NCBI GenBank assembly: GCA_009377745.1
Contig: WHTK01000001.1
Span: 124,001-188,000, forward strand
Reading direction: 5' to 3'
DNA length: 64,000 nucleotides
From: Dehalococcoidia bacterium
GTDB taxonomy: Bacteria > Chloroflexota > Dehalococcoidia > DSTF01 > WHTK01
Made by a program: the position numbers and the translations under genes. Positions 2,709 to 6,880 of the stretch are shown piece by piece; position 1 is the stretch's first letter; every line of letters begins with the position of its first letter. The notes beneath the pieces are model-generated. The model had not been told where the DNA came from. It ran no database searches and was given only the letters and a program-made list of their open reading frames with translations.

Positions 2709-3689
2709 ATGCAGAAGTACATAATCCAACGTCTGCTGCTAACGATTCCAACACTGATCGCGGTGACGATGCTGACGTTCTTCGGCCTGCGAGTCATCCT
2801 TCCGGCGGACGTCATCGACCTGATCGTGGGTGAATACGGTAAGAACGACCCGCAGCTGCGCGAGAATCTGGAGGCGCAGCTCGGCCTCGATTCCAGCGTC
2901 GGCACTCAATACGTCAAGTGGGTCGGCCTTGCCTGGTTCTGGGGCGATGACCGCGGCGTTTTGCAAGGCAATCTGGGTGAGTCGCTGCACAGCGGCCGCA
3001 GCGTGATGTCGGAGCTGAAGCGGCGTGTCCCTGTGAGCTTCGAGCTCGGCCTGTGGGCGCAGATGACCGCTATCGCCGCGGCTGTCCCCATGGGGGTTTA
3101 CGCCGCGTTGAGGCAGGATAAGTTTCCCGACTACGGCCTGCGCTCGTTAGCGATCCTGGTCAACTCCGTGCCGGGCTTCTGGATCGCTGTGCTGGTGATC
3201 ACTTTCGGGTCGATCTGGTTTAACTGGGCGCCGCCGATCACCTTTAAGTACATCTATGAGGACCCTATAGCTCACTTCAAGATCATGCTGCTGCCGGCGC
3301 TGATCATCGGCTTGACGCCGAGCGGCGGCCTGGTGCGTCTGGTGCGCACCCAGATGCTGGAAGTGCTGCGCCAGGACTACATCCGCACGGCGCACGCCAA
3401 GGGTCTGAGCCAGAACACGGTGCTCTACAAGCACGCGCTGCGAAACGCGCTGATCCCGGTCGTGACGGTTATCGGCGTTGGCCTGCCCAACATCATCGCC
3501 GGCACTGTCATTTTCGAGCAGATATTCATCATCCCGGGGATGGGCCGCTACCTGGTCGATTCGGTGAACAACCTGGACTACCCCGTCATTCAGGGTTTGA
3601 ACCTGGTGTTCGCGACATTGCTGATGTTCGCGGTGCTGCTGGTTGATATCAGCTACGCATTCCTGGACCCGCGGATCCGCTACCGGTAA
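2709..3689 (+). CDS. ABC transporter permease, oligopeptide type (DppB/OppB family)
   Basis: First membrane subunit of a family-5 (peptide, nickel or opine) ABC importer. The 326-residue protein starts with a signal-anchor helix (RLLLTIPTLIAVTMLTFFGL). It has the typical large external loop, then the BPD_transp_1 core with the cytoplasmic EAA loop around DYIRTAHAKGLSQNTVLYKHALRNAL, and the family C-terminus FLDPRIRYR. GGAGGTGA about 6 bases before the ATG is near ideal. The second permease follows after 18 bases. No ATPase or binding-protein gene is adjacent, so the system needs partners elsewhere; two family-5 binding proteins occur at 14.1 and 30.7 kb. Confidence 0.93.
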   Translation: MQKYIIQRLLLTIPTLIAVTMLTFFGLRVILPADVIDLIVGEYGKNDPQLRENLEAQLGLDSSVGTQYVKWVGLAWFWGDDRGVLQGNLGESLHSGRSVMSELKRRVPVSFELGLWAQMTAIAAAVPMGVYAALRQDKFPDYGLRSLAILVNSVPGFWIAVLVITFGSIWFNWAPPITFKYIYEDPIAHFKIMLLPALIIGLTPSGGLVRLVRTQMLEVLRQDYIRTAHAKGLSQNTVLYKHALRNALIPVVTVIGVGLPNIIAGTVIFEQIFIIPGMGRYLVDSVNNLDYPVIQGLNLVFATLLMFAVLLVDISYAFLDPRIRYR

Positions 3690-3707
3690 GGCGAAGGGGA
3701 GATAGAG

Positions 3708-4703
3708 ATGGCTATTTCAGAGCTCGGCGGCATCGCCGAGATTGAGGGCTGGGAAGCTCCGGTCTTAAAGCCACTACCGGCGCGAATCCTCGGGGGTTTG
3801 AGCAATTTCGCGCGCAAGAAGCCGCTTGGCTTTTTCTGCGGCTTCGTCGTGATTTTCTTCATGATCGTCGGCGATGTGGTACCTGCCTCCTCCAACAAGA
3901 TTCTTGCCACCGCTGGCTTCGGCGAGCCGGTGCCTTACCTGGCGGACCAGATTGAGCAGAGCACCAGCCTGGTTTATCCCTACGCCAAGCAGGACCTGCG
4001 CAACCGGCTGCAGGGGCCAAGCTCCACACACATCCTCGGTACGGACTCGATCGGGCGAGACATCTTCAGCCGCCTGCTCTACGCGGCCCGGACGGCCGTT
4101 ATGGTCTCCTTCGGCGCGGTGCTGATTTCCTCCTCGCTGCAGATCATGTTCGCCGTGCCGGCGGGCTACTACGGCGGACTCTACGACAAGCTGGCTTATC
4201 GCCTGGTTGACATTGCCGATTCCTTGCCGGGTTTGGTCGTCCTGATTACGATTCTCGGTATCTTCGGGTCAGGACTCTGGCAGATGATCTTCGTCATCGG
4301 TGTGCTGGGTGGCTTCGGGGGCCGTAGTCTGCGCGGCCAGACGATTCAGATCATGGCCAGCCCGTTCATCGAGGCGGCGCGCGTGATCGGCGCCAGCGAC
4401 CGCCGAATCATGACCCGCTATGTCCTGCCCAACGTCTTCGCGCTCGTGATCCTGGGTGCGACACTCCGTCTGGGCAGCGTGGTGCTTCAAGAGGCGAGCC
4501 TGAGCTTCCTCGGCTACGGACTGCCGCCACCATTCCCATCCTGGGGTCAGATGCTGAGCCTGGAAGGCCGCGAGTACATGCGGACGCAGCCCGGCCTGGC
4601 GATCTACCCCGGCCTTGCTATCGGCCTGCTGGTGTTCTCGTTCAACCTCTTCGGTGACGCACTGCGCGACGTGCTGGACCCGCGCCTGCGGGGCAGCAAG
4701 TAG
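3708..4703 (+). CDS. ABC transporter permease, oligopeptide type (DppC/OppC family)
   Basis: Second membrane subunit, partner of the preceding permease. It has the OppC-type N-terminal cytoplasmic tail and first helix (GFFCGFVVIFFMIVGDVV), the HILGTDSIGRDIFSRLLYAART motif region typical of DppC, the EAA loop around PFIEAARVIGASDRRIMTRYVLPN, the conserved EASLSFLGYGLPPP segment and the terminal DPRLRGSK. The extracellular insertion after the first helix (about residues 65-105) is longer than in many DppC proteins. GAAGGGGAG precedes the ATG. A perfect hairpin 22 bases after the stop probably ends the operon. Confidence 0.93.
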   Translation: MAISELGGIAEIEGWEAPVLKPLPARILGGLSNFARKKPLGFFCGFVVIFFMIVGDVVPASSNKILATAGFGEPVPYLADQIEQSTSLVYPYAKQDLRNRLQGPSSTHILGTDSIGRDIFSRLLYAARTAVMVSFGAVLISSSLQIMFAVPAGYYGGLYDKLAYRLVDIADSLPGLVVLITILGIFGSGLWQMIFVIGVLGGFGGRSLRGQTIQIMASPFIEAARVIGASDRRIMTRYVLPNVFALVILGATLRLGSVVLQEASLSFLGYGLPPPFPSWGQMLSLEGREYMRTQPGLAIYPGLAIGLLVFSFNLFGDALRDVLDPRLRGSK

Positions 4704-4883: not shown

Positions 4884-6029
4884 ATGACAGGTCGAATTAC
4901 GCTGATCGGCGCCGGAGAGCTCATGTCTGCTATGAGCGCGCAGCACCGCGCTGTCCTCAACCGGCTCTCAGGCACGCCTCGGCCGGTGTTCCTCGATACA
5001 ACGGCCGGTTATGAGACCAACGTAGACGCCATCGTCACCAAGGCGGTGGAGTATTACGAGCACCACCTGCAGCTGCCCCTGCGCGTCGCGAGATACCGTC
5101 ATCGTACGCGGACCAGCGCGGCTGATCTGGCGGCGGCGGTGTCTGAGATTAGGGAGGCGAACCTGATCTTCGCTGGGCCGGGCAGTCCCAGCTATGCGAT
5201 CCGGCAGTGGCGCGATTCACCCGTATGGGCAGCGGTGCTGGAGCGCTTTGAGGCCGGCGCGGACGTGATGTTCGCCAGCGCCGCCTCGATCACGATCGGC
5301 CGCTACGCATTGCCAGTCTACGAGATCTACAAGGCCGGCGAAGACCCTTACTGGAACGATGGCCTCGACCTGCTAGGGCGCATGGGGCTTAGTCTGGCCG
5401 TAATCCCTCACTATGATGACAACTCCGGCGGTGAGAACTACGACTCACGCTTCTGCTACATGGGAGCGCAGCGCTTCGACGCCTTGCAGGAGGCGCTGCC
5501 GCCGGACGTCTCCATCCTCGGCATCGACGCCTACACCGCGATCTGCTTCGACCCTTACAAGCAGGAGGCCAGCGTTTCCGGCCAGGGCGGCGTAACCCTG
5601 ATCGGTGACGGCGCCGAGCAGCGCTTTACGGCCGGCAGCCTGCTGTCCTTCGAGGCGTTCCGGTCGTCCTCGCGCGAGGTGGTGCACACGGCGAACAACG
5701 AGCGCGTCTTCGGCTACGAGTTCAGCGATTCAGACGAGCCGTCTGAGGCAGACCCGATCGAGGACCTCAGCGGCTTCATTGAGGGACTCGAGGCGCTGCC
5801 GGAAGCCGACAAGGTTGAGCTGCTGGCGCGCGTTGAGTCCGCGCGGCGGCAGGGCGACTCACGCCCGCCGGAGCACGAAGGCGAGCTGGTAGACCTGGTG
5901 TTGGCCTTGCGGGAAGAGCTGCGCGGCGCCAAGCGCTTCGAGCTGGCCGACCATGCCCGGCAGGCGTTGGAGGAGATGGGATTCGAGATCGGCGATTCAC
6001 CCAGCGGAGCCAAGTGGACGCGACGCTGA
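4884..6029 (+). CDS. Peptidase S51/GATase1-like protein with a CysRS-like C-terminal domain
   Basis: A two-part protein of 381 residues. Residues 1-245 look like the type 1 glutamine amidotransferase-like/peptidase S51 fold (cyanophycinase, dipeptidase E): a GAGELMSAM start, FAGPGSPSYAIRQW, and a nucleophile-elbow-like FASAASITIG where S51 enzymes have GxSAGA. The last 70 residues (LVLALREELRGAKRFELADH, then ALEEMGFEIGDSPSGAKWTRR) closely resemble the extreme C-terminus of cysteinyl-tRNA synthetase, with the usual ADxxRxxLxxxGxxxxDxxxGxxWRR pattern. A real CysRS core is absent. It overlaps the next hydrolase gene by 16 bases, so the two are probably cotranslated. Function unknown; I infer a small-molecule or peptide hydrolase with an RNA-binding or interaction tail. 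Confidence 0.75.
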   Translation: MTGRITLIGAGELMSAMSAQHRAVLNRLSGTPRPVFLDTTAGYETNVDAIVTKAVEYYEHHLQLPLRVARYRHRTRTSAADLAAAVSEIREANLIFAGPGSPSYAIRQWRDSPVWAAVLERFEAGADVMFASAASITIGRYALPVYEIYKAGEDPYWNDGLDLLGRMGLSLAVIPHYDDNSGGENYDSRFCYMGAQRFDALQEALPPDVSILGIDAYTAICFDPYKQEASVSGQGGVTLIGDGAEQRFTAGSLLSFEAFRSSSREVVHTANNERVFGYEFSDSDEPSEADPIEDLSGFIEGLEALPEADKVELLARVESARRQGDSRPPEHEGELVDLVLALREELRGAKRFELADHARQALEEMGFEIGDSPSGAKWTRR

Positions 6030-6880
6030 CGCCGCTGCAGAGCCGGGTGGCGGTCCGGGGCATCGAGATATCAACCCGCGAATGGCCGGGAGATGGCCGG
6101 CCGTTTCTGCTGGTGCACGGCCTCGCCTCCAATGCCCGAACCTGGGACGGCGTCGCGCGATGCCTCAACGAGCTTGGACATCGCGTCGTCGCCATCGACC
6201 AGAGAGGTCACGGCCTCAGCGGCAAGCCAGACCACGGCTACGGCTTCGATGAGGTCACGGCAGACCTCCACGTCCTGATCGAGACGCTGAGCCTGGACCG
6301 GCCGCTGCTGGTTGGCCAGTCCTGGGGCGGCAACGTCATCCTCGACTACGCCTCGCGCTGGCCGCGGACGCTCTCCGGCCTCGCACTGGTCGATGGCGGC
6401 TTTATCGAGCTGTCGGCCGGGTCCGATGCCAGCTGGGAGAAGGTCGCCATCGACCTGAGGCCGCCATCGCTGGCCGGCACGCCGCGCAACGAGATCAAGG
6501 AGCGCATCGCCTCGTTTCATCCCGAATGGGACGACGAGCAGCTCGAGATGACCCTCGCTAACTTCGAGACGCTGGACGACGGCACCGTGCGGCCCTGGCT
6601 GACTCTGGAGCGGCACATGGAGATATTGCGCGCGATCTGGGATCAGAAGCCATCCGAGCTCTACGGCCGGGTAGAAGCGCCAACCCTGATCGCGGTGGCG
6701 GAGTCGTCACGTCGCGAGGCTAACCCGCGTAAGCGCGAAGAGGTCGCCCGGGCAGAGCAAGGCCTGACGAAGGTCGCCGTGCGCTGGTTCACGGACACCG
6801 CGCACGATATCCACGTCGAGAAGCCGCGCGAGCTGGCGGACTGGATACTCGCGGCGCTGGCTGAGGGCTTCTTCGACTGA
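6014..6880 (+). CDS. Alpha/beta hydrolase
   Basis: A 288-residue alpha/beta-hydrolase fold enzyme. It shows the oxyanion HG motif in LLVHGLASNARTWDG, a conserved IDQRGHGLS, the nucleophile elbow GQSWGG and a C-terminal catalytic His in TAHDIHVEKP. A lid-like insertion lies around residues 130-200. No signal peptide, so cytoplasmic. The GTG start at 6014 lies inside the end of the S51-like gene in another frame, indicating coupled translation. The family covers esterases, haloalkane dehalogenases and C-C hydrolases; the substrate cannot be inferred. Confidence 0.88.
   Translation: MDATLTPLQSRVAVRGIEISTREWPGDGRPFLLVHGLASNARTWDGVARCLNELGHRVVAIDQRGHGLSGKPDHGYGFDEVTADLHVLIETLSLDRPLLVGQSWGGNVILDYASRWPRTLSGLALVDGGFIELSAGSDASWEKVAIDLRPPSLAGTPRNEIKERIASFHPEWDDEQLEMTLANFETLDDGTVRPWLTLERHMEILRAIWDQKPSELYGRVEAPTLIAVAESSRREANPRKREEVARAEQGLTKVAVRWFTDTAHDIHVEKPRELADWILAALAEGFFD

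Follow-up and report, generated by a model that had tools for sequence, protein, structure and literature searches.

A conserved fusion of an S51 peptidase-like domain with a cysteinyl-tRNA synthetase anticodon-binding domain in Chloroflexota suggests an undescribed enzyme linked to cysteine tRNA

The 381-residue protein P0001, encoded on the forward strand at positions 4884 to 6029 of the window (the whole 64,000-nucleotide stretch of a Dehalococcoidia genome that was analysed), joins an S51 peptidase-like domain to the C-terminal anticodon-binding domain (CysS_C) of cysteinyl-tRNA synthetase (CysRS). Judging from its sequence, P0001 is probably an undescribed enzyme acting on, or controlled by, cysteine tRNA. 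The best explanation, which we hold with slightly less than even confidence, is an S51 serine hydrolase (Ser132-His176-Asp215) that docks on tRNA-Cys through CysS_C and cuts an acyl bond there. The open-access literature yielded no description of a fusion between a cyanophycinase and cysteinyl-tRNA synthetase, nor of CysRS-glycosyltransferase fusions in Chloroflexi, which agrees, within open-access PMC, with the original prediction's remark that no described protein was known to join S51 to a CysRS tail. Neither domain is new in itself. What appears undescribed is their combination, how widely it occurs, and the network linking S51, CysS_C and family-2 glycosyltransferase (GT2) domains, and the case for a new tRNA-Cys-linked system is plausible. 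Re-used synthetase appendages are informative in that they reveal which tRNA a protein handles. For the P0001 family this address can apparently be read (G34 of tRNA-Cys), and the class of enzyme is known, which makes an uncharacterised family directly testable.

The P0001 frame opens with an ATG at 4884 and its stop codon ends at 6029, and the start aligns with that of a 60%-identical homologue, L003 (MTGRITLIG / MPGRITLVG). An alpha/beta-hydrolase frame with a GTG start (6014 to 6880) shares 16 bases with it; the coordinates of the fusion gene and the overlap are as originally given. The hydrolase adjoins the fusion gene in genome G415, not in G070, G100 or G027. The overlap is thus no conserved linkage, and an operon with the hydrolase was rejected, as was one with the upstream ABC permeases, which are not conserved neighbours. 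Around the best 80 of at least 559 related loci, the neighbours are lineage-specific housekeeping genes that suggest no clear function; by eye, we take proteins near 10 and 11 of these 80 loci to be QueA-like and uracil-DNA-glycosylase-like, respectively. In several genomes a second, distant S51 gene without a tail lies divergent from the adjoining S51-CysS_C gene, always on the minus strand in the cases recorded (L186:532-1314, beside 1291-2403 on the plus strand; L097:4163-5005; L110:4167-4949; L079:3973-4770).

The S51 peptidase-like domain spans residues 1 to about 262 (4884 to 5669, forward strand). Residues 1 to 256 match PDB 6nqc, a cyanophycinase-like exopeptidase, at E 2.7e-7 (phmmer), and the AlphaFold model of P0001 has a mean pLDDT of 89 and a pTM of 0.73. 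When the whole model was compared with the PDB by Foldseek, 6nqc ranked first (E 5e-16, target TM 0.82), followed by pseudo-CphB, dipeptidase E and cyanophycinase entries. The model therefore places the N-terminal part in the S51/GATase1-like fold shared by MEROPS S51/PF03575 proteins (dipeptidase E, cyanophycinase, MccG), with 6nqc as the nearest structure; the fold originally proposed stood, while its boundary at residue 245 proved slightly short of the actual one at about 260. The predicted triad was assigned by alignment rather than by superposition on the model. It comprises Ser132 as nucleophile (5277 to 5279) and His176 (5409 to 5411), both invariant in 90 of 90 relatives, with Asp215 (5526 to 5528; D in 87 and E in 3 of 90) as the third position inferred from the alignment with MccG and PepE; all three are on the forward strand. 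According to the published positions, these residues take the places of MccG Ser133, His168 and Asp196, and of PepE Ser120-His157-Glu192 (PMC9239234). Glu147, present in all 90 aligned members, stands about where Streptomyces Orf2 has Asp147, a residue found to be essential and thought to bind substrate (PMC11078827).

The P0001 family also departs from its S51 relatives. The nucleophile motif GxSxG is replaced by A-S-A-A around Ser132 in most of the family, a CysS_C domain follows at the C terminus, and the two family-specific inserts PVYEIYKxGxDxHW and PHWNNxxGGxxxD mark a subfamily apart from cyanophycinase; GPGSPTY is likewise strongly conserved. P0001 scores 16.4 bits against the cyanophycinase model TIGR02069, far under its curated cut-off of 126.6. 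PF03575 is not reported for P0001, and 30 of 90 relatives match it at E<=1 (best 6.5e-5). A Pfam search with P0001 alone at E<=10 reports neither of its domains, so that annotation of this protein by itself would miss the architecture; the one match returned, to CofD, is weak and was judged spurious. Because the S51 fold and catalytic residues are kept, hydrolase activity of P0001 is likely.

Behind the S51 domain comes a linker (5670 to 5864, forward strand), which in the AlphaFold confidence profile consists of a low-confidence stretch (residues 273 to 287) and then short helices, and the CysS_C domain itself occupies residues 328 to 381 (5865 to 6026, forward strand). The isolated tail matches the NCBIfam CysRS model TIGR00435 (cysS) at E 2e-5, and the match runs to position 465 of the model's 466. 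For P0001 as a whole the match is confined to profile positions 397 to 465 of 466, so the class I catalytic domain is absent, as is DALR. The last 55 to 70 residues also match CysRS structures (8qhp, E 1.5e-4; E. coli 1li5, E 0.013). A profile built from 42 tails found CysRS structures in the PDB at 2.6e-15, 2.2e-14 and down to 6.4e-7, and nothing besides CysRS below E 0.2. The Pfam CysS_C family (PF23493, "Cysteinyl-tRNA ligase anticodon binding domain") was not reported for P0001 at E<=10; it matches 87 of 90 full-length family proteins (best 2.7e-12), and TIGR00435 matches 80 of these 90. The modelled tail ends in the helix-helix-hairpin of CysRS (pLDDT 83), and among 350,542 PDB chains its top match is 1u0b_B (probability 0.99, E 0.025, with a high overall rmsd), from the CysRS-tRNA-Cys complex 1u0b, followed by another CysRS; the modest E value reflects the small size of the domain. 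Profiles and model thus identify the tail as the CysRS C-terminal anticodon-binding domain. This agrees with the original prediction in kind and in length (about 55 to 75 residues), and the motifs on which it relied, FASAASITIG, ADHARQALEEMGFEIGD at residues 355 to 371 and GAKWTRR at 375 to 381, are all present in P0001.

Full-length fusions occur in the related genomes G070, G100 and G415 at 60, 44 and 61% identity, the first two belonging to the same class as the source genome, and further class members have an N-domain match in a frame long enough for the tail. Among 400 Chloroflexota genomes, 100 have a match at E<=1e-15. Scanning species genomes with an alignment as the query gave at least 594 pattern stretches and at least 559 confirmed relatives; the same scan with the single P0001 sequence returned no match. 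The best 80 of these at least 559 matches are almost all from Chloroflexota (Dehalococcoidia, Anaerolineae, Caldilineae and Oscillochloris, the last including L076, Candidatus Oscillochloris fontis), and they include one metagenome-assembled genome labelled Deltaproteobacteria (L114), which may be mis-binned. Outside Chloroflexota, where the range was sampled through plasmid records, fusions were found in the Actinomycetota Nonomuraea gerenzanensis and Streptomycetaceae, so the architecture crosses the phylum border. A phage-borne origin was rejected, since no relatives of the fusion were found on viral contigs.

The profile detects a tail in 132 of 144 fetched family members. A chance extension, frameshift or assembly artefact is already refuted by these 132 tailed proteins, which come from many separate genomes and share conserved tail residues, and can practically be dismissed; the fusion is confirmed as neither chance nor a single-genome oddity, and the genome survey bears out the expectation that it is conserved in relatives. 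Widespread conserved tails also rule out that homologues generally lack it. Those without one number 12: L007, ten proteins from families f115 and f118, and L050, which a contig end truncates. L007 and L174-L183 (families f118, f115 and f24) retain both the S51 domain and the catalytic motifs, and these families offer natural controls for the role of the tail. Their sequences show that the tail can be lost, and the S51 domain would be able to function without it in some lineages. None of the distant S51 proteins collected has a tail by profile. In the N-domain tree, tailed proteins branch from either side of the family root, and their distribution needs no more than three label changes, which would most simply mean one ancient gain of the tail and about two losses. 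The tail tree, built on 52 columns, lacks the length to resolve origins, and it does not reject a single S51-CysS_C clade (p-AU 0.37).

The tail-less members bear on the main rival to a hydrolase docked on tRNA-Cys, namely that the tail is a tRNA-Cys sensor and that binding of the tRNA, in charged or uncharged form, would switch or position an S51 peptidase with a free peptide or small-molecule substrate. All the evidence on the tail applies to it equally, the unchanged catalytic motifs of the tail-less proteins suit a dispensable regulator, and most of what is known of the S51 family concerns small peptides (PMC9239234, PMC11078827). However, the conserved motifs PVYEIYK, PHWNN..GG..D and GPGSPTY point to one defined substrate; a sensor could still accommodate them, and we regard it as unlikely rather than improbable.

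The residues retained in the tail speak to RNA recognition. In the E. coli CysRS-tRNA-Cys complex, according to PMC12684709 (citing Hauenstein et al. 2004), Arg427 and Asp436 form hydrogen bonds to G34, Trp432 stacks against it, and a water network at G34 runs through Asp436 and Arg423. By an ungapped alignment, in which P0001 numbering equals that of E. coli CysRS minus 80, the equivalents of Arg423, Arg427, Trp432 and Asp436 among the contacts described there are Arg343, Arg347, Phe352 and Asp356 (stretch 5910 to 5951, forward strand). Across the 132 tails these contact equivalents are R in 132, R in 132, W/F/Y in 131 and D in 131 plus one gap; in a curated set of 90 all four are kept in 100%, position 352 being aromatic throughout. 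Mean identity over the tail columns is just 34%. Trp458, in contrast, is W in 39 of 40 CysRS and in 42 of 132 fused tails. The G34-reading set is therefore held, on this alignment, while another position conserved in CysRS is not, and the loss of Trp458 may mean that tRNA recognition has changed in the fused tails. Retained RNA recognition by the tail is favoured, not proven, as some residues of the set may also be structural.

The frequent loss of Trp458 could also suit a tail that now serves as a protein-interaction module, binding CysRS or the ribosome, for instance, and no longer RNA, and small domains are commonly reused. But the G34-contact set is near-invariant in four architectures, which protein docking would not need. 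Since these equivalents are retained, we favour RNA binding; a tail devoted purely to protein interaction appears rather improbable.

The source genome carries a separate, ordinary CysRS (G000:C53:125685-127046), so the P0001 tail is an extra copy; a split or displaced CysRS tail was rejected, because a complete CysRS, tail included, is present in the source genome and in each of the further fused genomes checked. One genome, G523, encodes a triple fusion S51-CysS_C-GT2 of 601 residues (L036:487-2292, minus strand). GT2 domains of this kind are found in many Chloroflexota proteins, behind either a complete CysRS with CysS_C (about 720 to 920 residues) or CysS_C alone (from about 280 residues), and at the loci that were read almost all GT2 matches have a CysS_C or CysRS domain in front. 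These proteins thus share the CysS_C module and its retained residues with the P0001 family, and S51 genes lie beside some of them; the partner domain, unlike that of P0001, has a family-2 glycosyltransferase fold, and a full CysRS may be present or absent. The CysRS-CysS_C-GT2 paralogues are widespread in Chloroflexota (L192:5575-7779, L193-L195, L199-L246, L265-L284, L290-L298), and most of the genomes checked that carry them have a second, ordinary-sized CysRS. Their GT2 part has no clear DxD motif and shows LDxxxE instead; R423, R427 and D436 are kept in 45, 46 and 46 of 46 proteins. In the CysS_C-GT2 proteins of about 280 to 320 residues, in which an N-terminal CysS_C precedes GT2 without a synthetase (L247:5459-6292, L254:4738-5667, L255:4792-5721, L257:4934-5881), each of the three is kept in 12 of 12.

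Among the neighbours of CysRS-GT2 genes, S51 genes turned up most often. One adjoins them at 10 of about 54 loci (L192, L270, L272, L275, L277, L278, L284, L294, L295, L297), a count rather than a rate, as several loci were chosen for fuller reading after an S51 gene had come into view and many others cover short flanks; by our own estimate, given 1 to 5 S51 matches per genome and some thousands of genes, about 0.1 adjacencies would be expected by chance. The S51 gene usually lies downstream on the same strand, sometimes overlapping, and at L278 on the opposite strand. Together with the triple fusion, this adjacency is an independent association in favour of docking on tRNA-Cys.

The co-occurrence of CysRS, GT2 and S51 by fusion and adjacency could also reflect a mycothiol-like cysteine small-molecule pathway, in which a CysRS-like ligase, a glycosyltransferase and a hydrolase work together and CysS_C is an inherited scaffold. 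MshC, the mycothiol ligase, is paralogous to CysRS, and its model TIGR03447 hits one CysRS-GT2 protein in the CysRS part (E 4e-65). That match, however, is under the cut-off (220 of 485 bits), and CysRS models score higher; MshC is not known to have an anticodon domain, whereas the CysRS-GT2 proteins keep theirs with the G34 residues. Moreover, the S51-CysS_C and GT2-type families are mostly in different genomes, and we consider such a pathway quite improbable. Taken as N-domain matches, S51-CysS_C occurs together with the GT2 family in 3 of 259 genomes and the two occur separately in 70 and 73 (Fisher p 1e-8, with no correction for relatedness and with the second draw taken to be a subset of the first). 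The two families may be alternative solutions to one task, or merely belong to different lineages.

Returning to the hydrolase docked on tRNA-Cys, the tail would read G34 as CysRS does, and the enzyme would cut an acyl (ester or amide) bond on tRNA-Cys or on a molecule brought there. Alongside the observed architecture, conservation, retained catalytic and G34-contact residues, separate CysRS and S51/CysRS-type association, we infer the binding of tRNA-Cys, the activity of the hydrolase and the bond attacked. The candidate substrates are a wrongly attached or blocked aminoacyl or peptidyl group at the 3' end, and an acyl group carried by a modified nucleoside of the anticodon loop. Against a 3'-end substrate stands the long distance between the anticodon and the CCA end of a tRNA, and the P0001 linker may not reach. 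An anticodon-loop acyl group would fit this geometry and the tie of GT2 to the same CysS_C domain; to our knowledge, no such modification has been described in tRNA-Cys. A 3'-end group would fit S51 chemistry, because MccG cuts aminoacyl-nucleotides (PMC9239234). The MccG immunity peptidases are S51 enzymes that in this way inactivate a tRNA-synthetase inhibitor; as described, they target isoaspartyl nucleotides and have no tRNA-binding appendage, whereas P0001 carries CysS_C (PMC9239234). The comparison with MccG also led us to consider a microcin C-type immunity role for P0001. The tail-less members of f115, f118 and f24, the loss of Trp458 and ASAA in place of GxSxG would all count against docking.

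If docking on tRNA-Cys is true, P0001 would be a hydrolase for tRNA-Cys with no counterpart known to us. The linked CysRS-GT2 proteins would then point to a broader route of tRNA-Cys processing or modification in a large, little-studied phylum. More tentatively, Chloroflexota, and for the S51 part also some Actinomycetota, could possess a set of undescribed enzymes, S51 hydrolases and GT2-like proteins, some with a whole second CysRS, that are addressed to tRNA-Cys by the re-used CysRS anticodon domain and modify, edit or process it; we regard this as possible, still well short of probable.

Two further kinds of CysRS-like gene were seen. At one locus (L148:1498-2865 and 2880-4256, in G015:C39), two CysRS-like genes stand in tandem, both with the C-terminal domain. 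Several Chloroflexota genomes carry CysRS-like frames of about 400 to 440 residues (G003:C8:60252-61343 and similar) that match CysRS positions 1 to 375 only and, without the anticodon domain, are MshC-like in length.
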